From Candidatus Magnetomicrobium cryptolimnococcus (GTDB lineage: Bacteria; Nitrospirota; Thermodesulfovibrionia; Thermodesulfovibrionales; Magnetobacteriaceae): DNA of 64,000 nt. The translations under genes and the position numbers were made by a program. Under the pieces are notes generated by a model. It had not been told where the DNA came from, made no database searches, and saw only the letters and a program-made list of their open reading frames with translations. The DNA lies in assembly GCA_018606805.1 (NCBI GenBank), contig JAGYWI010000004.1:62001-126000 (forward strand), given 5' to 3'. Shown piece by piece: positions 4,321-52,556 of the stretch (positions within the stretch are counted from its first letter, which is position 1; every line of letters starts with the position of its first letter).

Positions 4321-5265
4321 CTATATATTTTTCTTATCTTTTATTTGCTGAATTGTTGCTAAAATCTCTTTAGCTAACTCATCTGGTCTGAATTTAGCGA
4401 TAAATACGTCAGCTCCAACCTGTTTTGCTTTATCCATGTTTGATGGATTACTCATTGAACTGTGGAGCATAATGTACATGTTTTTGAGCTTTTCGTTTTC
4501 CCGTATTTTTCTTGTAAATGTAAAACCATCCATGGTGGGCATTTCTATGTCGCAAATAATCATTGTGTATTTCTGTGCTGCTTTAGGGTCATTTATCAAA
4601 ATTTGTAGGGTTTCAGCGGCAGATTCCATAATTGTTGCACTATAGCCAAGTTGCGTTATAACTGACTCGTTAAGTCTCCGTGCTGTCTTAGAATCATCTA
4701 TGACCAGTATGTGTACGTCTTCGAAGTGTCCCACCTCTTTACTTTTTTCGATTATCTCCTGTGAAACCTCTTCCGGTATGCCAATAATTTCACCCAATAT
4801 GCGTTCAATATCAAGTATTTGAATCATCTCACCGCTATCCGTGTACGCTATTGCTACAAGAAAACCGGAATTGGACATCATCCCCGTAGGACTTTTTACC
4901 TCCTGCCAGCTTCTTGTTATGAGTGTATCAGGCATGCTTACGATAAAACCCTGTATGTTGTTGTTATACTCGCTTATAATAATGTAACTCAGTTTGTTCC
5001 TATAGTCTTGTTTTTCAAGCCCAAGGAAATCTGCCAAGTCTATGGTAACTACGGCTTTGCCTCTGAAATCTATGGTACCGCGGACCGTTGGATGGGAGTG
5101 GGGCATTTTTGTTATAACCGTTGGACACTCTATTACCTCTACTATCTTAAACACATTTATCCCATAGCGCTGCCCGTCGTTTAAGAAAAACACCAACATC
5201 TCCATCTGATTAGATAGTGCTAACTGTGTACGTTGATCAATTTCTTCAAAAATATTATCCTTCAT
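4321..5265 (-). CDS. cheV: CheV-type chemotaxis coupling protein (CheW domain plus receiver)
   Basis: The first 170 residues are a CheW-like coupling domain, beginning MKDNIFEEIDQRTQLALSNQ as CheV proteins do. Residues of about 185-305 are a receiver domain with acidic pair Asp190-Asp191 (VIDDSK), phospho-acceptor Asp239 (ICDIEMPTMDG) and conserved Lys291 (AKFRP). CheV links chemoreceptors to the CheA kinase and tunes the signal when phosphorylated. The ATG at 5265 was chosen because it follows a strong ribosome site (GGTGAAGGGGAA) and matches the family N-terminus. An upstream ATG at 5316 would overlap holA and add 17 residues. The chemoreceptor at 50.5 kb could be a partner. Confidence 0.93.
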   Translation of the reverse strand: MKDNIFEEIDQRTQLALSNQMEMLVFFLNDGQRYGINVFKIVEVIECPTVITKMPHSHPTVRGTIDFRGKAVVTIDLADFLGLEKQDYRNKLSYIIISEYNNNIQGFIVSMPDTLITRSWQEVKSPTGMMSNSGFLVAIAYTDSGEMIQILDIERILGEIIGIPEEVSQEIIEKSKEVGHFEDVHILVIDDSKTARRLNESVITQLGYSATIMESAAETLQILINDPKAAQKYTMIICDIEMPTMDGFTFTRKIRENEKLKNMYIMLHSSMSNPSNMDKAKQVGADVFIAKFRPDELAKEILATIQQIKDKKNI

Positions 5266-5297
5266 TTCCCCTTCACCTATATTATTTAAATAATTCT

Positions 5298-6155
5298 CTA
5301 ATTTTTCAAACTGCACAGCTCTGCTATGAGCATCTCTAACGGGTATTCAAGGCTAGTTTGCTTTAAATTTAGTTCTGTGTTTATGAGAGTTTCGTAGACC
5401 TTAAACGACTTCCTGTCTTTAGTACCCACTGTACTAACCTTCCAATTAATAGCACCAAGTATCATAAGAGGGTCTGATTTTTCCCTTATCTGACTATACA
5501 AAGAAAGTGCCTTTGCCCTTTCACCTTTTACTATTGCCTCCGGTAAACTGAAGGCATTGATGGTCTTCGTACCATAGAAAGACTCAAGCAATATATCTTT
5601 TGTTACTTTTTTGTGCCCAAGAAGCGATAGCTTTTCTATTTCATTGTCTAACATAGAAAGGTTTTCATCAAAAAACTCCTTTAAATAACTGACAGCATCA
5701 CTATCTAATATAAAACTGCGCCAAGCTGCCCTTTCTTTTAACCATCTGGTTATTTCACCCTTTTTCAATACCAAATCTATTGTCTTTACAGACTTTCCCT
5801 TCAGGTTTCTTAGTTTTTTTCCTTCTCCATAAACATATAAAAAAAGCACTGCCGTTGGTGATGGATTTTTCAAATATTGTTCTATTATCTCAAGTCCATT
5901 TTTTTTAATTTTTTGGAAATTAGTAATCACAACATATTTGGATGTTGAAAACAACGCAGGCATATTTAAACTCCCCGCTATAAGCTTAATATCCTGCTTT
6001 TCCTCAAGGTCATACATTTCAACTTTATTTTTATCGCTGCCACCAGCTATTACTTTGAGTGAGCTTCTTATAAAAAACTCATCGTTATAAAACAGCACAT
6101 AAACTCGCTCAGGGAAATTATTATTTTTTTCTTCTATTAATTCTTCTATGCCCAT
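5298..6155 (-). CDS. holA: DNA polymerase III delta subunit
   Basis: The 285-residue protein fits the delta subunit of the clamp loader. It opens with a short lead into VYVLFYNDEFFI, has a central helical stretch (YLKNPSPTAVLFLYVYGEGKKLR) and a C-terminal clamp-loader collar region (GAINWK). Delta opens the sliding clamp in the pol III holoenzyme. The protein is shorter than the usual 320-340 residues, and delta sequences are poorly conserved, so the call rests on overall pattern. It precedes cheV by 32 bases on the same strand. Confidence 0.8.
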   Translation of the reverse strand: MGIEELIEEKNNNFPERVYVLFYNDEFFIRSSLKVIAGGSDKNKVEMYDLEEKQDIKLIAGSLNMPALFSTSKYVVITNFQKIKKNGLEIIEQYLKNPSPTAVLFLYVYGEGKKLRNLKGKSVKTIDLVLKKGEITRWLKERAAWRSFILDSDAVSYLKEFFDENLSMLDNEIEKLSLLGHKKVTKDILLESFYGTKTINAFSLPEAIVKGERAKALSLYSQIREKSDPLMILGAINWKVSTVGTKDRKSFKVYETLINTELNLKQTSLEYPLEMLIAELCSLKN

Positions 6156-6472: not shown

Positions 6473-9400
6473 ATGACACATTTAAAAAATCAAGTAGGTG
6501 GCGCTCTTTTAAGAACCTTTGTTTTTATGTTTTTATTTAGTACATTAATTGTGGTTTGGTTTAACTTTTATATTTTTAGTAAATTTGATAATATAAAAAA
6601 ATATGACACAATTCAATACTATAGCAAAACAATCAATCGGCTTATGCAAGATGGGATACAAAGTGCTTTAGCTACTGCTGCACGGGTGAATTTGTCCCAG
6701 TATCTTGAAGATACTAATATGCTTAATAAAGACTTATCTGCTTACTTTCAAGACCATATTTTTACATATGTTTTCGTTGTAGATAAAGTTGGGAATATCT
6801 TATTTAGCTATGGTTTCGATGTTGATAAAATCAATTATAGATTAGATTTTAAGGAAAACATTTCTTGGTATTATGTCTCATCACTTAAAAGGCTTTTTGT
6901 AGTTTATCGCTCATCTTTAGAAGCTGGGGCGTATTTATTACTTTTTAAGCCGATAGATAGCTCTTTTCTTTCACAAATACTCTTGCCTGATACAACGCTG
7001 TATTTAAAGTGGCAGGATATGCCTGTAGCATCTTCTCTTGGCGACAGGGGTATTGAGGAGCTTTCAGCGGTGTATGGGAAGTCTAAAGTGGCAGGGGTGT
7101 ATCGGCAGTTTGAAATAGTATTGGGGAAACATTATAGTGGGATAGCACCTGTAATGGTGGTTAGGACACAGTTAAATCGGCCTTTTAGCATTTATGAACT
7201 AATTATTGCTAATTTAATGATAATTCTTATATTTATCGGCTTTATATGGCTTTTCCTTGGCAGGCGGTTTGCCTACGATATGCGTTCTATAGTTGCTTTG
7301 GAAAAAAATATACGTATGTTTACAACTTCCAAAATAGTAACGCCTGAACTTAAATATAATCTATTATCAGGTATGCCTAATGCCTCTGAGGAGATTAGTT
7401 TGCTGTCAAACTCTATCTTATCTATGATGATGTCAACAGAATATGCCGATAAGGCACACCATGAGTACGAGGCTAAGTTAGCCGAAAGTGAGCGCTCTTT
7501 AAGGGAAATTACAGCAAGTCTTGGCGAAGGGCTTATTGTCTTAGATAACAATGGGGTTGTGTGCTTTAGTAACATTAGGGCATCAAAGCTCCTTGGCTTA
7601 AAAGAAGAAGAGATGCTTGGCATGAGTGCTAATAACCTATTTCACTATGCTGGCGTTGACGGTGCTATGTGTGTCTTTGATGAATGCCAAATCCTTATGA
7701 AGGTCTTTAGCGGTGAGATAGCGATTAACAATGATGAGGTTTTTTATTGTAAAGACGATAGGTTTATGCCAGTGTCAATAGTGGCTTCACCTATAATTCG
7801 CCAACAAAAGATAACCGGTGCTGTTATTGCCTTTAACGATATTTCCGCTATAAAAGAAGCTCAGGAGGGATTATTAAAGGCAAAGGCGGAGGCGGAGCGA
7901 GCTAACAGGGCTAAAAGCGATTTTCTAGCAAATATGACTCATGAGATACGTACACCGATAAATGCCATCATCGGCTTAAGCTATATAACACTGAAAAACG
8001 CCTTAAATACTGAACAAAAAGATTATGTCAGGAAAATTCACTCATCTGCACAATCGCTTCTGGTTATTATTAATGATATATTGGATTTTTCAAAAATAGA
8101 GGCTGGCAGATTTGATCTGGAATCTATTAATTTTAACCTCGATGACGTACTTGAGCATATAGGTAGCTACGTATCCGTAACCATTGAGGAAAAAGACATT
8201 GAAGTCATATATAACTTATCACAATCCGTACCTAAAGGACTTATCGGCGACCCTATCAGATTAAACCAAATACTTATAAATATAGTTAATAACGCAATTA
8301 AGTTTACAATAAGGGGTGAGATTGTAATATCCGTGCAACTGCATAAGAAACTCAAAAAGACAGCTGTCTTGGAGTTTTCAGTAAGAGATACCGGTATTGG
8401 CATGACAGAAGAACAGATGGCAAACCTGTTTGTGCCCTTTACGCAAGTGGAAAGTCCTGCTAATAGAAAACAAAGTGGCGCTGGCTTAGGGCTTAGTATA
8501 GTGAAACGGCTTGTGGAAATGATGAGTGGTAACATTTGGGTTGACAGTAAAAAAGATAGCGGAAGCACTTTTACGTTTACTGTTACGCTTGGATTGCATG
8601 AAGTGCCACTAACAACCTTTGTCTTACCTAATGAACTGCAAGGTATGAAGGTCTTAGTTGTTGATGATAACGCTACAACAAGAACTATCTTTTTAGATAC
8701 CTTACGGTCTTTTTCTTTAAATCCAAAGGTGGTTGACTCAGGGGCTGCTGCTATTAGTGAGCTTGAAAGGACATTATCAAACTCAGCAGAGAAGCAGCCA
8801 TATGGGTTAGTGCTTATTGATTGGAAGATGCCAGGCATTGATGGCTTTGAAACAGCTAAACGGATTAAAGATAATGCGCATTTTGCCGATATCCCATTAG
8901 TAATAATGTTTACAGCCTATCGGCGTAATGATATAAAAAATAAGGCTATAGAACTTGGCGTCAATAGCTTTTTAATGAAACCCATACTTCCCAATATGCT
9001 TTATAAAACCATAGTGGAGTCCGCCGGCAGGCATAAGTTTATTGTAGATACTAAACACACCTTTGTGGTGGCTAAAGACAGGGTATACGAACGATTGGCT
9101 GGCCTTCGGGCACTAGTAGTAGAGCCTCATATTATAAATCAGCGTATAATATGCGAATTTCTTGAAAATGCTAAAATACTTGTCGAGGTAGCAAATAAAG
9201 GAGCTGATGCCGTTTATATCGTACAAAATAACCCAAAATACGATATTATTGTTATGGCCATAGATATGCCGGATTTGGATGGCTATGAAGTAGCTAAGAT
9301 TATACGTCGCAAAACAAACTATAAAGATGTGCCTATTGTCGGGTTAACCGACCACGCATTTAATGAAATAGATAAACACTTTGGCTCTGGTATTAATTAC

Positions 9401-11020
9401 TATGTGTCTAAACCTGTGGATATTGAACAACTTTATAATGTGTTGCTTAGATTGATTAAAGGTAGCTCCTATGCAGGTGCAATTCAACGCACTAAAGCAA
9501 GAGAGTCTTCTATTATTGAGGGGCTTCATGGTATAGACTTTGCCACAATGCTTAAAACCTTAGCAACCAATACCGAGCTTTTAAAAACCTTTCTTGTGCG
9601 CTTCCAAGAACACTGCTTGCTCGTAGCTGAAGATATACGTAAATCGCTTGAAGTCGGTGATGTTAAGGTAGCTAAAGACGTGTTTTATGTCTTTAAAACC
9701 GTGTGTGGTAATATTTCAATTAAAGAATTATATAATTTGTTTAAAAAATTAGAAAATACAATTATTGAAAATAAAGATGACATTGTAGACGGTATCGAAT
9801 ATCTATTAAAACAACTTACTAATGTCAGTGATAAGTTGGAATACTATAACCATGAAATAGCCCTGACCAAACAAGTGCCTATGGTAAAAAATGACAAAAC
9901 TCTGTATGCAGTAGATGAGTTGATAGAGCTTTTGAAATGTAATGATTTATATGCAATAAAAATCTTTAAAGACATAAAACCAATGCTGATTAACACTGGC
10001 TTTAGTGGTAACGTTGAAATGCTTGAAGGACGCTTAAGTAATTTTGACTTTAGCGGCGCTATTGATATTATAAATAGTTTTAAAAATAACATTTCCTTAA
10101 ATCCTATTATAGATGGAAAACATAGAGAACTTCAAAAAGTGTTTATAGCGGATGATTCAACTATTAATATACAAATACTAAATGCCGCTCTCGAATTTGA
10201 ATACAGGGTATCCTTTGCTACAAAAGGTAAAGAGGCTCTTGAACTAGTTAAACTAATAGTGCCAGACATTATCCTCCTTGACGTAATGATGCCAGAAATT
10301 GACGGCTATGAGCTGTGTCGAAAAATTAAGGCAGATAACTTATTGAAAAACATACCAGTAATTTTAATTACATCAAGTATAGAGTCAGAAAGCGAAACAA
10401 AAGGACTTGAAGCAGGTGCTGTAGACTACGTTACTAAACCATTTAACCCAACCGTCGTACATCTTAGAATAAAAAACCACCTCGAACTAAAACGCCAACG
10501 TGATATGCTTACCCGTTTGTCAACCCTCGACGGCTTAACCGGTATCGCAAACCGCCGTACCTTCGATGAATATTTTGAACGTGAATGGCGTAGAGCCGTT
10601 CGTCTACAAAAACCACTGTCAATTATTATGATTGATATTGATTTCTTTAAACAATATAATGATACCTATGGACACGTAGCTGGTGATGAATGCTTGAAAA
10701 AGGTGGCTAACGCCATAGCTTCAACACTAAAAAGACCCCTAGACCTTGCCGCCCGCTACGGCGGCGAAGAATTCGTTTGCCTCCTTCCTGAAACTGATAA
10801 AGACGGAGCTGTCTTTATATCAGAAAACTTACACTTAAACGTTAATAGTATGAATATACCACACGATAAATCCTCTGTATCTAAACACGTAACTATCAGT
10901 ATCGGTGCAGCAACAGCTAAGATATCTAATCAACAAACAATTATGGAAGCTGCTGATAAAATGCTGTATGAATCAAAACATACCGGCCGTAATAAATTCA
11001 CCCATACTTTGATAGAATAA
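6473..11020 (+). CDS. Hybrid sensor histidine kinase, three receivers, HPt-like and GGDEF domains
   Basis: This 1515-residue protein is anchored by two membrane segments (about 13-35 and 240-262) flanking a roughly 200-residue external sensor region. After them come PAS (about 345-460), HisKA with His490 in NMTHEIRTP, and HATPase with DTGIGM and GAGLGLSIV. Receiver 1 has Asp731-732 and Asp783. Receiver 2 has E884 where the acidic pair should be and Ala929 in place of the phospho-aspartate (VMAIDMPDLDG). An HPt-like domain has Tyr1072 where the phosphorylated His belongs (YVFKTVCGNIS). Receiver 3 is intact (Asp1227-1228, Asp1270), and a GGDEF cyclase with GGEEF at 1430-1434 ends the protein. 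The likely output is cyclic di-GMP synthesis driven by phosphorylation of receiver 3, which sits directly before the cyclase. It is not in an operon. Confidence 0.93.
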   Translation: MTHLKNQVGGALLRTFVFMFLFSTLIVVWFNFYIFSKFDNIKKYDTIQYYSKTINRLMQDGIQSALATAARVNLSQYLEDTNMLNKDLSAYFQDHIFTYVFVVDKVGNILFSYGFDVDKINYRLDFKENISWYYVSSLKRLFVVYRSSLEAGAYLLLFKPIDSSFLSQILLPDTTLYLKWQDMPVASSLGDRGIEELSAVYGKSKVAGVYRQFEIVLGKHYSGIAPVMVVRTQLNRPFSIYELIIANLMIILIFIGFIWLFLGRRFAYDMRSIVALEKNIRMFTTSKIVTPELKYNLLSGMPNASEEISLLSNSILSMMMSTEYADKAHHEYEAKLAESERSLREITASLGEGLIVLDNNGVVCFSNIRASKLLGLKEEEMLGMSANNLFHYAGVDGAMCVFDECQILMKVFSGEIAINNDEVFYCKDDRFMPVSIVASPIIRQQKITGAVIAFNDISAIKEAQEGLLKAKAEAERANRAKSDFLANMTHEIRTPINAIIGLSYITLKNALNTEQKDYVRKIHSSAQSLLVIINDILDFSKIEAGRFDLESINFNLDDVLEHIGSYVSVTIEEKDIEVIYNLSQSVPKGLIGDPIRLNQILINIVNNAIKFTIRGEIVISVQLHKKLKKTAVLEFSVRDTGIGMTEEQMANLFVPFTQVESPANRKQSGAGLGLSIVKRLVEMMSGNIWVDSKKDSGSTFTFTVTLGLHEVPLTTFVLPNELQGMKVLVVDDNATTRTIFLDTLRSFSLNPKVVDSGAAAISELERTLSNSAEKQPYGLVLIDWKMPGIDGFETAKRIKDNAHFADIPLVIMFTAYRRNDIKNKAIELGVNSFLMKPILPNMLYKTIVESAGRHKFIVDTKHTFVVAKDRVYERLAGLRALVVEPHIINQRIICEFLENAKILVEVANKGADAVYIVQNNPKYDIIVMAIDMPDLDGYEVAKIIRRKTNYKDVPIVGLTDHAFNEIDKHFGSGINYYVSKPVDIEQLYNVLLRLIKGSSYAGAIQRTKARESSIIEGLHGIDFATMLKTLATNTELLKTFLVRFQEHCLLVAEDIRKSLEVGDVKVAKDVFYVFKTVCGNISIKELYNLFKKLENTIIENKDDIVDGIEYLLKQLTNVSDKLEYYNHEIALTKQVPMVKNDKTLYAVDELIELLKCNDLYAIKIFKDIKPMLINTGFSGNVEMLEGRLSNFDFSGAIDIINSFKNNISLNPIIDGKHRELQKVFIADDSTINIQILNAALEFEYRVSFATKGKEALELVKLIVPDIILLDVMMPEIDGYELCRKIKADNLLKNIPVILITSSIESESETKGLEAGAVDYVTKPFNPTVVHLRIKNHLELKRQRDMLTRLSTLDGLTGIANRRTFDEYFEREWRRAVRLQKPLSIIMIDIDFFKQYNDTYGHVAGDECLKKVANAIASTLKRPLDLAARYGGEEFVCLLPETDKDGAVFISENLHLNVNSMNIPHDKSSVSKHVTISIGAATAKISNQQTIMEAADKMLYESKHTGRNKFTHTLIE

Positions 11021-11334: not shown

Positions 11335-11486
11335 ACAGTCCAAAAGTTTTCGGAAAGAGGGTGCGGGGGTTTGGGAGTGCGCCTACGCACCTTTTACCTA
11401 AAAGGGTTTTCCCCCGCTCCTCTATCTTTTTTTTCTTTTTCTTTTTTCTTTTTTTCTTTTTTTTTCCTTTTTCTTTTTTTTCCTTT
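11335..11486. repeat. Hairpin repeat, right arm (inverted) with a 62-base pyrimidine tract
   Basis: Positions 11335-11440 are an inverted, imperfect copy of 11022-11118 (hairpin GTGCGCCTACGCAC, then TTTTCCCCCGC and CCTCTATC). From 11425 to 11486 the plus strand is pure C and T, mostly T, running up to the cooS stop codon. On the cooS transcript this would be a homopurine tail. Confidence 0.75.
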
Positions 11487-13359
11487 ATATACCTAAAGCT
11501 TTTCTCTTCTTCATTATATGCTGCTCAATTCCATCAGCTATTTGTACAGGGTCATCACCAACGGCTACTTTTCCACCGGTTATATTTTCCACATCCTCAG
11601 TAAGTAGTTTAACCACATCTGGGGCTCCGGTAACAGCTGGCACTGGCGATACATGTGTATATAAACCAAATGCCACTGCAAATATGGCATCTATAGTTGC
11701 CTTTTGTTCCATGTATTCAGGGGCTGTAACAGCCACCGGCAAATCTTTAGTATCTACCCCAAGGGCATTGGCAACTGCCGTTACCAAATTAGCAAGTCTT
11801 CCTGTATCTGTACAGGTACCAAAACTAAGCACTGGTGGAATTCCTAGGGCATTACACACGGCCTTTAACCCAGCACCAGCCATTGATGCTGCCTCAGTCG
11901 TTTGCAGACCTGCTACTTGTAAGGCACCGTTACCACAGCCGGCGCTAAGCACCAAGATATCCCTTTTTATAAGCTCTTTAGCTACAGCTACAGTTACTGC
12001 ATCTTGTGGACCATTTGTAAGTGTTGTACAGCTTACAAGTGCTGTTACTCCCTTTATAGAGCCATTTTTAATTACATCTAAAAGGGGGTTTAAAGTACCG
12101 CCAAGTGCCTTCAGCACTGAACCAATAGAAAAACCAACGATGGCCTTTTGTGTTTTATTTGGAATAAGTGTATCCTTACCTTTTCTCTTTTTAAAGTTTT
12201 CTATAGCTAGTTTTATAAGTTCCATGGCAAGGGATTCTACTTTTTCCGGAATATATTCATAATTACGGTTAATGCCGGGTAATCTCACAAGCTTTGACAC
12301 ATTAGCAACGGTGGAATTATACTTTTGTTCATAAAGCGACAGTGTGGGCACAGAGCAGTTCATATCACAAGCAAACAAATCAACCGCACCAGTTGCCATC
12401 ACATATTCCTGATTTAACCAATTCCCTGTCATTCCAACAAACACATCATCAGTGGGAAATCTTTGTATCATCTCTTGTCCAGTTTCTATAGAACCAGCAA
12501 TCCTTATACCCTTAGCACCGGCATCTTTTGCCATTTGCTGTACCTCAGGACGCTTAGCAAGCTCTAACATGGCAACGCCAACAAAAGGTTCATGCCCATT
12601 TGGCACTATATTTACATAATCTTTGTCAAGGATTCCTAAATCCATCATAGTTTCATGTGGCTCAGGCATGCCAAAAAGTATGTCATGTATTATTTCAAGA
12701 ACTACTTGTGAGCAGTATGCCATTGATATGCTCATACGCATAGCCATCTTTGCTAAGGATACGTAGTCGGAATCTATATTGGTCATACATCTGCTTTCCG
12801 TATCAATCGTTTCATGCAGTGGACCGCCGGGAAAAATACCTAACTGTCTCCAGAGTTTTTTCCTTGATTCAGGGGCAAATATTTCAACCACTTTAGATTC
12901 TTCATCCGAGTCCCGGTGAAATTCACTCCAAAAGAAATCCGCAAGCTTAATCGCCGTATCAGCCACATTGCCATTCGTTGCAATTCCACACGCCTTAGCG
13001 GTGCTATTTAGGTCATCAACGTTTTTAATCTTAAAAGGCGTTTTACCTTCGGCTGTAGCCTTTAAGGTCTTAATAGCCTCCTTGGCATGATATGAATATG
13101 CCGCTGCGCCAAATATGTTTAAATGCACCATCTTCCTCATAACCATACCATTTGCATCTATGCCACACACACCGCGGTCTGCGTGTTTTGTAATACGGCA
13201 TGGGCCTTGGCTACAGAGCTGGCAGCTAATACCCTGTTTACAGTAAGAGCACCTTGTCTTTTCCTGAGCCTCAAACCGCTCAAATACCGATGTTATTCCA
13301 TCCTTCTTCACTTTCTCATGTAGAATGTTTACACTTTCATGTAGACTAACTTTTTCCAT
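11485..13359 (-). CDS. cooS: Anaerobic Ni-Fe carbon monoxide dehydrogenase, catalytic subunit
   Basis: The 624-residue protein oxidises CO to CO2, or the reverse, at a Ni-Fe-S C-cluster in a cytoplasmic homodimer. N-terminal cysteines are C37, C40, C46, C49, C54 and C65. The first two form the CX2C pair expected to hold the shared D-cluster, and the rest hold the B-cluster. C-cluster regions include NGHEPFVG, FACDMNCSVPT, SAGCGNGAL and SFGTCTDTGR, and the family ending EYMEQKA is present. Length is normal. The ferredoxin-like gene lies 39 bases upstream on the same strand and probably supplies or accepts electrons. No cooC, acsB or corrinoid Fe-S protein gene is next to it, so a respiratory or redox-balancing role is as likely as carbon fixation. 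Confidence 0.97.
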   Translation of the reverse strand: MEKVSLHESVNILHEKVKKDGITSVFERFEAQEKTRCSYCKQGISCQLCSQGPCRITKHADRGVCGIDANGMVMRKMVHLNIFGAAAYSYHAKEAIKTLKATAEGKTPFKIKNVDDLNSTAKACGIATNGNVADTAIKLADFFWSEFHRDSDEESKVVEIFAPESRKKLWRQLGIFPGGPLHETIDTESRCMTNIDSDYVSLAKMAMRMSISMAYCSQVVLEIIHDILFGMPEPHETMMDLGILDKDYVNIVPNGHEPFVGVAMLELAKRPEVQQMAKDAGAKGIRIAGSIETGQEMIQRFPTDDVFVGMTGNWLNQEYVMATGAVDLFACDMNCSVPTLSLYEQKYNSTVANVSKLVRLPGINRNYEYIPEKVESLAMELIKLAIENFKKRKGKDTLIPNKTQKAIVGFSIGSVLKALGGTLNPLLDVIKNGSIKGVTALVSCTTLTNGPQDAVTVAVAKELIKRDILVLSAGCGNGALQVAGLQTTEAASMAGAGLKAVCNALGIPPVLSFGTCTDTGRLANLVTAVANALGVDTKDLPVAVTAPEYMEQKATIDAIFAVAFGLYTHVSPVPAVTGAPDVVKLLTEDVENITGGKVAVGDDPVQIADGIEQHIMKKRKALGI

Positions 13360-13398
13360 TAATCCTCCTTATTTTTGATTAAATTAAAAAAAAACTAT

Positions 13399-14250
13399 TT
13401 ACACCCAATCATTAGCCAAAATATCCCCCTGCACTCCAACAACTATGGCCTTTATAGGCACCTTCCTTGAAGCTGCCTTAAGCGCCTCCTTGGCTATATG
13501 CAAAAGCCCGTTACAACAAGGTACTTGCATTATCATAACGGTCAGGGTGTTTATCTTTGCCTCATCTATTAAAAGCCGAATTTTTTCCACATAAACATCC
13601 AAATTACTATCAAGCTTAGGGCATGCAATAACAAGTTTTTTACCTTTTAGGTAATTTGCATGAAAATCCCCAAGTGCATAAGCAACGCAGTCAGCACTAA
13701 GCAGGACATCGCTTCCGTGAAAATACGGAGCAGCAGGGGAAATCAAATGTCCCTGCACAGGCCACTGGGTAAGCTGAGAGGCTCCGTTAATTTGTCCAGC
13801 GCTATTTGTAGTAGCCGGGGCAAAATCCCTCATCTGACTACCCGGACAACCACATGCCATGGGCTTGGGCGTACTACCTTCATCGCCGGTTTTTTCGCCA
13901 GTTAAAATATCAATATTGTGTTTTTTTAGAAATTCGAGAGCTTGAGTAAAATATTGAGTCTGACCGTGGGATTGTAAGTGGTGCAGGTGTTCCTTAATTA
14001 CGTTTACTCCCTGCTTTACAATGTTTTCCATAACCTTTGCCTCATCATAGGGTTCAGCCTCACGTTCTTCAATAGTGATAGCCCCCTCCGGACATTGCCC
14101 AAGACATGCACCAAGCCCATCACAAAACAGATCGCTAATTAGCCGTGCCTTACCATCTACTATACTGATAGCCCCCTCCGGACACCCCGGAATACATTGA
14201 CCACAGCCTGTACATTTTTCAGCATCAATGTTTATTATTTGCCTTTTCAT
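13399..14250 (-). CDS. 4Fe-4S ferredoxin-type protein linked to CO dehydrogenase
   Basis: The 283-residue protein starts with a ferredoxin domain. Cluster one is C13, C16, C19, C23 (CTGCGQCIPGCPEGAI). Cluster two has the less usual spacing C43, C49, C53 (CDGLGACLGQCPEGAI). The remaining 200 residues have more cysteines (ACGCPGSQM, ACPKLD, PCCNGL) and form a domain often found in stand-alone electron-transfer proteins near CODH or hybrid-cluster proteins; its exact role is unknown. It is transcribed with cooS (39-base gap), so it is the best candidate electron partner of CooS, although it is not a plain CooF. Confidence 0.85.
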   Translation of the reverse strand: MKRQIINIDAEKCTGCGQCIPGCPEGAISIVDGKARLISDLFCDGLGACLGQCPEGAITIEEREAEPYDEAKVMENIVKQGVNVIKEHLHHLQSHGQTQYFTQALEFLKKHNIDILTGEKTGDEGSTPKPMACGCPGSQMRDFAPATTNSAGQINGASQLTQWPVQGHLISPAAPYFHGSDVLLSADCVAYALGDFHANYLKGKKLVIACPKLDSNLDVYVEKIRLLIDEAKINTLTVMIMQVPCCNGLLHIAKEALKAASRKVPIKAIVVGVQGDILANDWV

Positions 14251-21894: not shown

Positions 21895-23799
21895 CTAATT
21901 TATTTGGTATAAATATTTACCTATTTCATCCTTAATAGAAGGAAACACCGATAAATCCGTATGAGGAATAAACATAGCCGACATATACTCATCCATATAG
22001 CCAGCGATTACGGATAATTCAATATACGTCATCTTAGAGGCAATTTCCTCAAGCTCATAACGCAGCTCATCACACATAAGCGAAAGATACGCCCCAACTA
22101 TTGAAGTATTACCTAAAAACACATACTTTTCTACAGGTAGATCCGGAATCATACCAAGCATCTTCGTTTGTTCCACATTTAGGGAGTTTCCAAAGCCACC
22201 GGCTATATATACCTTCTCTATTGCATCAACAGGAAGCCCAACCTCCTTCAAAAGCAGCGTAACCCCTGCAAAAATGGCAGCCTTTGCCCTTATCAGGTTT
22301 TCTATGTCAACCTTTGTAAGTACAATATCGCGTTTAAGTTCCTTATCGGAATATATAAGAAACTCAAGGCCTTCCTCCCCTTCTCGTATTCTGTTAGTCT
22401 TACCCTGTGCAAAAATACCTTTTTGGTTGATAAGACCTGTTTTAAACATCTCAACTATGGCATCAATCATACCAGAGCCACAAATCCCCATAGGTGTTAC
22501 CCCACCGATAACGCTTATTATTGGCTCATAAGTGTTTGGATCAATTTTTATGGACTCAATAGCGCCCGGGGTTGCACGCATACCGTTTTTAATGCCGCCT
22601 CCTTCAAAGCACGGTCCTGCTGAACAGGCCGCCGTCATCAACCATTCGTTATTGCCGATGACTATTTCCGCATTAGTGCCTATATCCATAAATAGGGCTA
22701 TTTCACTATTTCTGTACATTTTTGATGCAAGTATGCCAGCTGCTATATCGCCACCGACGTAGCTAGCCACACAGGGCGACGTATAGACGGGGGATTGCGG
22801 ATTGATTTTAAGCCCCGATGTTTTACCTTTCCATAACGGATAATAGTTGATAGTTGGTATGTATGGGTCTTCTCTGATAGTTTCAGGGTTAAGTCCCCAA
22901 AATATTTGAGACATTGTCGTATTGCCAGAAACAGCACAGGCGTCTATTTCACACATCTCTATACCGTGTCTATCTGATAAAGAATCCAGTATGGTATTAA
23001 TATCTGAAACAACCGCCTCTCTTAGGTCATTTAGCCCGCCCCCTTCGGTTGCAAACACTATTCTTGTAATGACATCATCGCCAAAACGCGTCTGGGAATT
23101 ATAAGTAGAGCCTATATCTATTATGCGGCCACTTACAAGGTCTATTAAATAAACAACCACAGTAGTTGTGCCAATATCTACGGCTATACCGTATCTGCGT
23201 GAACATTCATCTTGTGAAAACAAGGAAAGGGCTTCAAACGTATTTATATTTTCCTCCTCGGCGTAGGAAAGTGTGACGTTCCAGTTAGCAGTTCTTAATG
23301 TTTCCCCTAAAGTAGCAACTAATTCGTATGAAAACCGCATATTTTCAAGCGCAGCCTCTAAAACAGCTCGCTTTAGCCTTTCAAGGTCGCTAATATTATC
23401 TTCTATTGATGGCGGTGGTAGCTTAAGAAAAACACGTTTAACGATTGGGTTTATTTCAAAATTATAGGATTTAAGGTACTCAGCAGGCTCTTTAAATGCC
23501 GTTGATGCAATCTTACCACCAAGCGTAAGGCGTGATTGTCTGGGAATTTCTATGGTAAGGTCTGTCTTTGCATTAGTTTGACAGGCTAATACCACCCCTT
23601 CAAGTCTTTCTTTTTGTTCAAGACGACCGTAACTTTTACAGTCAACTTTTCCATCAAGTATGCGCACCTTGCATTTACCACAGGTCCCCTTGCCACCACA
23701 CGGTGCCACAAGGTAAGTACCCTGCCCTTTGAGCGTGTTGTATAAATCCTCCTTAGCTCCTACTTCTATGGTCTTGTCGCCAAAAATCTTTAATTCCAT
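21895..23799 (-). CDS. RACo-type ATP-dependent reductive activator of corrinoid proteins (2Fe-2S plus ASKHA)
   Basis: The 634-residue protein begins with a plant-type 2Fe-2S ferredoxin domain (C34, C40, C43, C73; CGGKGTCGKC). A linker and an ASKHA ATPase domain follow (GIAVDIGTTTVVVYLIDL, ACSAGPCFEGGGI, YIAGGFGNSLN). This is the DUF4445 family including RACo/AcsV, which uses ATP to drive uphill electron transfer reactivating Co(II) corrinoids. The expected partner, a corrinoid Fe-S protein or methyltransferase, is not in the window. With cooS 8.5 kb away, a Wood-Ljungdahl or methyl-transfer function elsewhere in the genome is plausible. Confidence 0.9.
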   Translation of the reverse strand: MELKIFGDKTIEVGAKEDLYNTLKGQGTYLVAPCGGKGTCGKCKVRILDGKVDCKSYGRLEQKERLEGVVLACQTNAKTDLTIEIPRQSRLTLGGKIASTAFKEPAEYLKSYNFEINPIVKRVFLKLPPPSIEDNISDLERLKRAVLEAALENMRFSYELVATLGETLRTANWNVTLSYAEEENINTFEALSLFSQDECSRRYGIAVDIGTTTVVVYLIDLVSGRIIDIGSTYNSQTRFGDDVITRIVFATEGGGLNDLREAVVSDINTILDSLSDRHGIEMCEIDACAVSGNTTMSQIFWGLNPETIREDPYIPTINYYPLWKGKTSGLKINPQSPVYTSPCVASYVGGDIAAGILASKMYRNSEIALFMDIGTNAEIVIGNNEWLMTAACSAGPCFEGGGIKNGMRATPGAIESIKIDPNTYEPIISVIGGVTPMGICGSGMIDAIVEMFKTGLINQKGIFAQGKTNRIREGEEGLEFLIYSDKELKRDIVLTKVDIENLIRAKAAIFAGVTLLLKEVGLPVDAIEKVYIAGGFGNSLNVEQTKMLGMIPDLPVEKYVFLGNTSIVGAYLSLMCDELRYELEEIASKMTYIELSVIAGYMDEYMSAMFIPHTDLSVFPSIKDEIGKYLYQIN

Positions 23800-50471: not shown

Positions 50472-52556
50472 ATGAAAATAAAACATAAATTAATATTAAA
50501 TTCCACCGTGTGCCTTACGCTCATAGTATTAACAGGGATGTTTGGGTATGTTTATTCAGATAGATATGCAAAAGATATGGATACCATAAAGAAAAGACAT
50601 TTCCCGCTGTATGCAACGTGCAAGGATTTGAAGTTTGATGTCGTGCAAGTCCAACAGTGGTTAACGGATATAAGTGCAACACGTGGTCTTAACGGTTTGA
50701 ATGATGGCATAGAGAAAGCCGCACAATTTAAAAAAGAAGGCGTGCAGAAGATACAAGAAATTGGCGCACTTGTAAAGGGCAGCTCCTTTGCTTTGGATGC
50801 CATAAAAACAGCCTTTGAAACATACTATAATGTAGGCTTAGAAATGGCAAGTGGGTATATCCAGTATGGGCCTGAGGTAGGAAACAAGCTGATGCTAAAG
50901 TTTGATAGTGCCTCCGAGTCAATCAACACTAAAGTTGACGATATATGCCATCAAATAAGTAAAGAATTTGAAGACATACTCATCATGCAAGTAAAGGAAG
51001 CGGAAAGGGCACAAAAGATATATCTATTTTTAGTAATTTTTGCCTGTGTAGCCGGGTTATCGGCAGCTGTTATTGTTGGGCTGCATGTTACTAAACCTTT
51101 AGGCGATTTCATAAACGCACTAGAAGGCTTTAATCAGGAAGAAGGGAATTTGCAAGTAAGGATTAATGAGGACAGAAAAGATGAAATGGGCGCTATGGCA
51201 AGCTTATTTAATAGATTTGTTGAAAAGCTAAATACGATGGTATTAAAATTTACAAGAGTAAACGAGCAGGTAACATCCTCGGCGGCTGAGCTTTATATGA
51301 TAGCCGAAGAAACAGCTAAGGCTGCTGTTACGCAGCATGAAAAGATAGATTCAGTTTTAAGCTCTATGACCCAAATGAGTGAAAAGACAATGGAGGTTGC
51401 CAAAAACGCCCATGAGGCTTCTGAAACCGCTAAAAACGCTACAAGTATTGCCTTAAAGGGAAGGGACCTTGTTAATCAAGCAATTAATGTAATGGACAAT
51501 ATCCGTGATAGGACTGAAAACTCTGCTAATATAATAGAAACCCTGGGGACTCATTCAAATGAAATTGGAGATATTGTAAAGGTAATTAACGAAATAGCGG
51601 AACAAACTAATCTATTAGCCCTAAATGCCGCAATAGAGGCAGCAAGAGCCGGTGAACAAGGTAGAGGGTTTGCCGTTGTTGCAGATGAGGTGCGGAAACT
51701 TTCGGAAAACACCAGCACTGCAACTAATAAGATAGATAAAATGATTAAAACCATACAACAAAACTCTAGCTCAGCAGTGGTGTCCATGAAGGAAGCTACA
51801 AAGGAAGTGCTAAATGGTGTAAATTATATTAATCAAGCCGGTATCACGCTTAAAGATATAGTGAGTATGAGTGAGGATGTTACTGAGAAAATCGTCAAAA
51901 TAGCATCAGCAACCGAGCATCAATCATCAACGGCAGATGAAATAGCTAACTATATGGAAATCATAGCCGATGTTTCAAAGGAACTTGTTAAAAACGCTAA
52001 GCGTAACGCAGGGGCATCACAGGAACTGTCCGTTGACTTAACATCTCAACTGGAAACAGTATTTAACCAATTTATGATTGCCGAAAATGCTGTACAACTG
52101 TCCCATGATGAGATAGACAATATAATTAAATCTGTACAACCGCTTATAGAATGGAAGGATGAGTACTCCGTTGGTATACAGAAATTTGATGACCAACACA
52201 AGGAACTATTTAGAATAATAAATAATCTGTATGCTGCTATGAAAAAAAGAGTTGGTAATCAGGTTATTTATGATATATTGAGTAGCCTATTTGAATATAC
52301 ATATACCCACTTTGGTGCCGAGGAGGAAGTTATGAATATTTACGGTTACCCACAAGCAAGCATTAGAGGGCACTTAGAAGAACATTTACGGTTTATTATT
52401 ACTCTAAATAAAATCAAAGATGGTTTAAAAAAAGGATATGGCGGTGTCAATCTCCAGCTCTTAAACACTCTAAAGGACTGGACAAACGAACATATATTGA
52501 AAATTGATAAACAATATGGCGAATTTTTCAAAAAAAGAGGTATTAAAATTAAATAA
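50472..52556 (+). CDS. Methyl-accepting chemotaxis protein with a C-terminal hemerythrin domain
   Basis: The 694-residue protein has a four-helix-bundle sensor between two membrane segments (about 7-28 and 185-207), HAMP (about 210-260) and the signalling hairpin ([40 protein letters not shown]). A hemerythrin domain of about 135 residues ends it, with ligands in [27 protein letters not shown] and NEHILKIDK. Such chemoreceptors (DcrH type) sense oxygen in the cytoplasm through the di-iron site. Two inputs, one external, are possible. CheV at 4.3 kb could couple it to CheA. Confidence 0.95.

Follow-up and report, generated by a model that had tools for sequence, protein, structure and literature searches.

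In a survey from 2010, hybrid kinases of the TRRP type, BarA-like proteins with the order histidine kinase (HK)-REC-REC-HPt, made up the most frequent four-domain combination, with 196 proteins, 83 of them encoded beside a single regulator gene; five-domain proteins numbered 20 among 43,426, and ten of these were PPPTR (PMC3018481). The window analysed here, a 64,000 nucleotide (nt) stretch of the genome of Candidatus Magnetomicrobium cryptolimnococcus, a member of the Nitrospirota (contig JAGYWI010000004.1, positions 62,001 to 126,000), contains an open reading frame (ORF) at 6473-11020 on the forward strand that, as listed and translated, starts with ATG and encodes 1515 amino acids (aa). 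This protein, hereafter the window protein, has the domain order sensor-PAS-HisKA/HATPase-REC1-REC2-HPt-helical tail-REC3-GGDEF. It shares the kinase, receiver, HPt order of the TRRP kinases, as recognised with Pfam, local hidden Markov models (HMMs) and leave-one-out profiles, but compared with them it is a TRRPR protein, with the regulator fused on and with REC2 and the HPt domain disabled. Its best NCBIfam match is BarA, at 482.8 bits, under the cut-off of 890.

RodK of Myxococcus xanthus is not known to have an HPt or a GGDEF domain. Like the window protein, it combines a kinase with three receivers, and it passes phosphate selectively to the third (PMC3868531); its receivers are not known to lack the phospho-accepting Asp, whereas REC2 of the window protein has none. 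SgmT, also from M. xanthus, is a hybrid kinase with a C-terminal receiver and GGDEF domain, as here, but its GGDEF domain is degenerate and binds cyclic di-GMP (c-di-GMP; PMC3509222), whereas the GGEEF motif of the window protein is intact. The hybrid two-component systems (HTCS) of Bacteroides also have a kinase and a response regulator in one chain; they end in a DNA-binding domain, with no receiver-HPt arm mentioned in the abstract of PMC11253607, in contrast to the disabled arm and GGDEF output found here. PleD combines a pseudo-receiver with a live receiver and a cyclase domain (PMC12632262) and is among the structural matches of the 1056-aa AlphaFold model described below, but it has no kinase or HPt and, unlike in the window protein, its live and pseudo-receivers are adjacent. 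The Spo0 relays of Firmicutes have repeatedly been remodelled so that the final regulator is phosphorylated directly, as we propose here, although there the change occurred among separate proteins and not within one polypeptide that kept the disabled parts (PMC6136694).

Key residues were read from the DNA; all domains are on the forward strand. The kinase core (residues 480-709, 7910-8599; Pfam PF00512 and PF02518) retains His490 (CAT), and REC1 (724-846, 8642-9010; PF00072, local HMM and alignment) retains Asp731, Asp732, Asp783 and Lys836. REC2 (876-998, 9098-9466), placed by alignments, a leave-one-out HMM and its predicted fold, has Pro885 in the acidic pair (Glu884-Pro885, GAG CCT) and Ala929 (GCC) at the phospho-Asp position, but still has Tyr977, at the K-3 position, Lys980 and, from the translation, Thr959. 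In the HPt (1014-1120, 9512-9832), recognised by a leave-one-out HMM, alignments and helices in the model, Tyr1072 (TAT) replaces the phospho-His and Lys1075 is kept. REC3 (1222-1340, 10136-10492; Pfam, alignment and residues) is intact, with Asp1227, Asp1228, Asp1270, Thr1300 and Lys1322, as is GGEEF (1430-1434) in the GGDEF domain (1348-1510, 10514-11002; PF00990, alignment and residues), where RPLD (1421-1424) fits the RxxD I-site motif. Asp1270 and GGEEF together give the C-terminal part the features of a REC-GGDEF regulator of the PleD/WspR/DgcR type, except that it is not a separate protein but shares one open frame with the kinase; the DgcR NCBIfam model scores 227.7 bits against a cut-off of 500. 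Pfam recognises three Response_reg (PF00072) stretches in the protein, and neither its Hpt model nor any model for the helical tail (1140-1208, about 70 aa; 9890-10096) matches at E≤1. The tail, delimited by local profiles and the model, is shared by many relatives (75 of the 122 other kinases surveyed).

REC2 is thus a pseudo-receiver, with a predicted receiver fold but with the Asp and the second acidic residue missing, and the HPt is a pseudo-HPt, with Tyr1072 where 121 of 123 proteins carry His and no other His on the predicted helix. In an alignment of 43 proteins, 41 have His in this column, and the other Tyr is that of a paralogue, C35, from the same genome. Tyr1072 falls within a predicted helix (positions 195-211 of a 342-aa model, residues 1064-1080), and a substitute His on that helix was rejected, the only His residues between 1005 and 1139 being His1019, His1047 and His1127. 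As Ala929, Pro885 and Tyr1072 stand where phosphate-carrying residues of the last receiver and HPt are expected, a His-Asp-His-Asp relay cannot pass REC2 or the HPt, and the window protein, judged from these residues, is related to the TRRP family but cannot work as a TRRP relay. A preliminary description made from the sequence had already stated that such a relay could not run through the HPt, and its readings of Ala929, Tyr1072, His490, REC1, REC3 and GGEEF agree with ours; REC2 is a second block. It had also listed Glu884 as a defect, which we reject. Glu is usual at the first acidic position of the last receiver, the pair being E-D in 115 of 123 proteins, D-D in 7 and E-P only in the window protein, and the actual lesion of the pair, Pro885, had gone unnamed. 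Sequencing error alone is unlikely to explain these losses, because three sites are affected, at least four base changes separate them from Asp or His codons, and the 1515-codon frame is otherwise open.

The rarity of these losses emerges from a survey of related kinases. In all, 138 loci were typed, 30 from the whole-genome search of 60 relatives and, fetched by place, a set of 28 and a set of 80, the latter picked from part of the matches listed, of 423 in 19 genomes, many of which are probably receivers without an HPt. They yielded 128 HPt kinase ORFs and, with identical ones dropped, 123 proteins, which are neither independent (related species and paralogues are included) nor randomly drawn. 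The kinase His was unreadable in two, and the conserved Thr of the last receiver was taken as position 959, not alignment column 956. The last receiver keeps the phospho-Asp in 122 of the 123 and the acidic pair in 122, with Lys replaced by Arg in one; the HPt His is kept in 121, both exceptions (the window protein and C35) being from this one genome. Loss of the last-receiver Asp and HPt His together occurs only in the window protein. By the criterion set in the preliminary description, the retention of both residues in more distant homologues suggests a lineage-specific loss rather than a conserved state. More widely, 2.0% of receivers are reported to lack Asp and 0.9% of Hpt domains to lack His (PMC12632262). 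Of the 110 proteins with a recognised REC1, 41 have lost the Asp or one of the acidic residues there (in the other 13 no REC1 was recognised). In this sample REC1 therefore often decays and REC2-HPt does not, a pattern that the window protein inverts.

Several other kinases also have altered sites. In C35 (genome G000, L097:3577-6669, reverse strand) the kinase His is Gln, the HPt His is Tyr and the REC1 pair is Asp-Asn, with the last receiver intact; no receiver gene is recognised alongside, and C35 is a candidate pseudo-hybrid kinase. In the same genome, the REC1 Asp is His in C5 (L100) and the REC1 Asp-Asp pair is Ser-Ser in C43 (L098), so that four of its six REC-HPt kinases have lost a site. 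Four proteins from one genus (L175, L177, L178 and L181, in G008, G002, G014 and G011) share a class of pseudo-REC1, with D-S in the pair, Ser at the phospho-Asp position and Met at the Lys position, while their REC2-HPt is intact.

Whole-genome protein searches covered 60 relatives (best 9 candidates per genome), 230 genomes of the class (best 5) and 395 of the phylum (best 4). Stand-alone REC-GGDEF regulators, about 300 aa long and with 45-58% identity, make up most of the matches to the C-terminal half listed from the 60 relatives and the 230 class genomes. Of the 128 kinase ORFs, 22 have a REC-GGDEF gene directly behind them, at a distance of -35 to +134 nt. Without three duplicate loci these are 19 pairs, five of which overlap by exactly 4 nt, and a further pair in G235 brings the relatives with a split pair to 20. 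Behind another 22 lies an ORF with a REC3-like receiver as its sole recognised part, and for 68 there is no recognised receiver next door within the stretch fetched. Nineteen stand-alone REC-GGDEF proteins, of which 15 belong to such pairs, share 44-56% identity with REC3-GGDEF. The window protein is such a pair of kinase and REC-GGDEF regulator fused in one frame, through a 13-residue linker (1209-1221, 10097-10135) placed by alignment and DNA reading. With REC3-GGDEF corresponding to a separate, neighbouring regulator gene in 20 relatives, REC3 would be a natural target of its own kinase.

Fused proteins of a different kind also exist. L011, L012 and L013 (from G001, G013 and G007) are single chains of at least 1528 aa in which kinase-REC-REC-HPt-tail-REC is followed by another kinase core. 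A tree calculated for 23 proteins, from the kinase to the tail plus REC3, groups them together (ultrafast bootstrap, UFBoot, 100) and joins them to the split L024, L032 and L034 (100) with a support of 80, so that they are probably an independent fusion. These six, with the split L020, L022 and L078 and with L033, for which no partner was seen, form a clade of ten that excludes the window protein (UFBoot 90; 92 without REC3, 55 with REC3 alone). The window protein joins the ten at UFBoot 75 (49 without REC3, 65 with REC3 alone), and with L075 added the group has 99 (87 and 89). As fused and split relatives group apart from the window protein, a split ancestor with two fusions is the simplest account. 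Among the matches listed for the 395 phylum genomes at E≤1e-110, with four candidates scored per genome, the window protein and two L011-type proteins are the only ones with REC2-HPt-tail-REC3 uninterrupted; the third L011-type protein, in G013, is not in that list. A scan of genome contigs with REC2-HPt-tail found a single distant match, in Virgibacillus, and may omit records very near this genome.

The disabled domains were predicted to be folded, which is consistent with the suggestion in the preliminary description that the middle domains serve as structural or binding parts. The local HMMs set the kinase core at 481-709, REC2 at 877-996, the HPt at 1016-1118 and the tail at 1141-1207, with REC1, REC3 and GGDEF bounded as above. 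These HMMs included the window protein itself; leave-one-out profiles, built without it, found REC2 at 112.3 bits and the HPt at 53.6 bits. In the 342-aa AlphaFold model of REC2, the HPt and the tail (mean predicted local distance difference test score, pLDDT, 86.5), REC2 has a complete (beta-alpha)5 fold at pLDDT of about 85-97 and the HPt and tail are helical, with block pLDDT of the helices mostly at 81-94. The 1056-aa model has a mean pLDDT of 81.0, with the HPt at only about 60. The REC2 model superimposes on CheY4 with Z 21.0 and a root-mean-square deviation of 1.3 Å over 119 residues. The Foldseek and VIA rows for the 342-aa model cover mainly the receiver, leaving the HPt and tail folds unconfirmed by solved structures. 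Likewise, profile A4 has 241 PDB matches, of which the 60 listed cover the receiver part, and phmmer with HPt-tail gives two matches only (E 0.035 and 0.54), too weak for use.

Rates of change were assessed, domain by domain, from the terminal branch of the window protein on a fixed tree of 64 proteins. Its length is 0.61 in the kinase core (rank 6 of 64), 0.63 in REC1 (rank 17), 0.92 in REC2 (rank 2), 1.47 in the HPt (rank 1) and 1.32 in the tail (rank 8). When compared with the kinase-core value, the branch is raised for REC2 (ratio 1.5, median 0.92, rank 6 of 37), ordinary for the HPt (2.41, median 2.06, rank 12 of 37) and low for REC1 (1.04, median 1.42, rank 29 of 37). These ratios therefore indicate some acceleration of REC2 and no collapse.

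The explanation that we favour, with moderate confidence, is that a kinase and its regulator were fused, that the relay then collapsed to direct transfer from the kinase to REC3, and that REC2-HPt was kept as a folded scaffold. A membrane-bound hybrid kinase (HK-REC1-REC2-HPt-tail) would have been joined to the REC-GGDEF regulator encoded directly downstream. Before fusion, phosphate would have passed from the kinase His to a receiver, to the HPt and on to the receiver of the regulator; with REC3 tethered to the kinase, direct phosphorylation of Asp1270 by His490 would have become possible. The arm formed by REC2 and the HPt, no longer required for transfer, would then have lost its acidic residue, Asp and His, while its domains persisted as folded spacers or docking surfaces. 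Synthesis of c-di-GMP by the GGDEF domain would be switched on by phosphorylated REC3 and may be subject to product inhibition at RxxD, and REC1, with its residues intact, may serve as a competing acceptor or phosphate sink. Asp1270 could be phosphorylated by His490, by an HPt of another protein or by a small phosphodonor. Direct transfer seems the simplest of these, as REC3 is tethered, corresponds to the paired regulator of the kinase and, in RodK, the kinase selects the third receiver. More tentatively, this change from a four-step relay to a direct two-step switch may have left the dead receiver-HPt pair repurposed as a non-catalytic module, a clamp on REC3 or a site of c-di-GMP feedback.

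Several observations weigh against relay bypass after fusion. REC1 is nearer the kinase, looks live and could take the phosphate instead. Significant kinase-receiver covariation is reported even in tethered hybrid kinases, in a paper that also cites reports of tethering relaxing specificity (PMC9981736); given that covariation, a tethered receiver is not necessarily a substrate. L011-L013 are fused to REC3, yet retain the last-receiver Asp and HPt His, and the notion that fusion always kills the HPt is thereby rejected. The placement of the window protein relative to L075 is weak (UFBoot 75, and 49 without REC3), the double loss is seen in one genome only, and the raised REC2 rate and long branch also fit decay. 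Around the fusion junction, codons 1184 to 1231 include no in-frame ATG, but a GTG at codon 1223 could in principle restart translation to give a separate REC3-GGDEF protein.

It seems unlikely, but deserves consideration, that REC3 receives its phosphate in trans from an HPt of a different protein, with the cyclase listening to several kinases and its own kinase acting mainly on REC1. Borrowed HPts are known (PMC12471899), and REC3 corresponds to the receiver that sits beside an HPt kinase in other genomes. Six full-length REC-HPt kinases are encoded in this genome, of which C39, C5, C43 and C38 keep the HPt His, and Pfam Hpt has a further three matches, which lie within 656-767-aa frames. 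However, C39, C5 and C38 each adjoin a receiver gene of their own, C43 lies near a contig end, and tethering favours intramolecular transfer. No small stand-alone HPt was found at Pfam Hpt E≤0.001, although this search also missed the HPt of the window protein.

That the protein is on its way out, with the relay sites lost under relaxed selection, other domains to follow and an output independent of phosphate, appears rather improbable. The long terminal branches of the kinase core, REC2 and HPt would fit such decay, as would the loss of the kinase His, the HPt His and part of REC1 in the paralogue C35, and no orthologue was found in the contig scan or by a search with the sensor (residues 1-335), which at E≤0.001 matched only itself in 19 genomes of the family. 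The 1515-codon frame nevertheless remains open, the key residues examined in the kinase, REC1, REC3 and GGDEF domains are kept, and the relative rates of the HPt and REC1 are ordinary and low, respectively.

In plants, the pseudo-HPt AHP6 competes for partners. We give little credence to the dead REC2 or HPt having gained an active role here, by binding c-di-GMP for feedback or clamping REC3 until the kinase fires, for although the pseudo-receiver of ShkA, the top row by E-value for the 1056-aa model, binds c-di-GMP (PMC7010744), and REC2 and the HPt are retained and predicted to be folded, with Tyr977 and Thr959 kept, retention alone fits a spacer as well and any c-di-GMP site in REC2 is putative.

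Upstream of the kinase core are a PAS domain (residues 343-457, 7499-7843; PF00989 and PF13426) and an N-terminal sensor (residues ~1-340, 6473-7492), likely membrane-bound, with hydrophobic stretches at ~13-33 and ~241-262 read by eye from the translation. Just upstream of the gene, on the opposite strand (4321-6155), a CheW-receiver (CheV-like) gene overlaps a DNA polymerase III delta-like gene. Elsewhere in the window, the reverse strand encodes a prismane/CO dehydrogenase family protein with a 4Fe-4S protein (11485-14250) and an AcsV-like corrinoid activator (21895-23799; 679.7 bits against a cut-off of 800), and the forward strand a methyl-accepting chemotaxis protein with a terminal bacteriohemerythrin domain (50472-52556).

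Dead receivers and dead HPts are each already known, as is the fusion of a kinase with a degenerate GGDEF domain, in SgmT. The apparent novelty is a kinase-cyclase that has lost both of the relay stations retained by its split relatives; among the papers listed from an open-licence library, none was seen to describe a bacterial kinase-cyclase in which a receiver and an HPt are both dead. For the question of why phosphorelays require an HPt, the window protein offers a natural experiment, and split relatives with intact relay residues allow a direct comparison with the fused, arm-disabled protein. If tethering does let the kinase skip the arm, a relay would have become a direct switch without the loss of a protein, and the window protein would make it possible to study which functions remain to receivers and HPts that are folded but dead.

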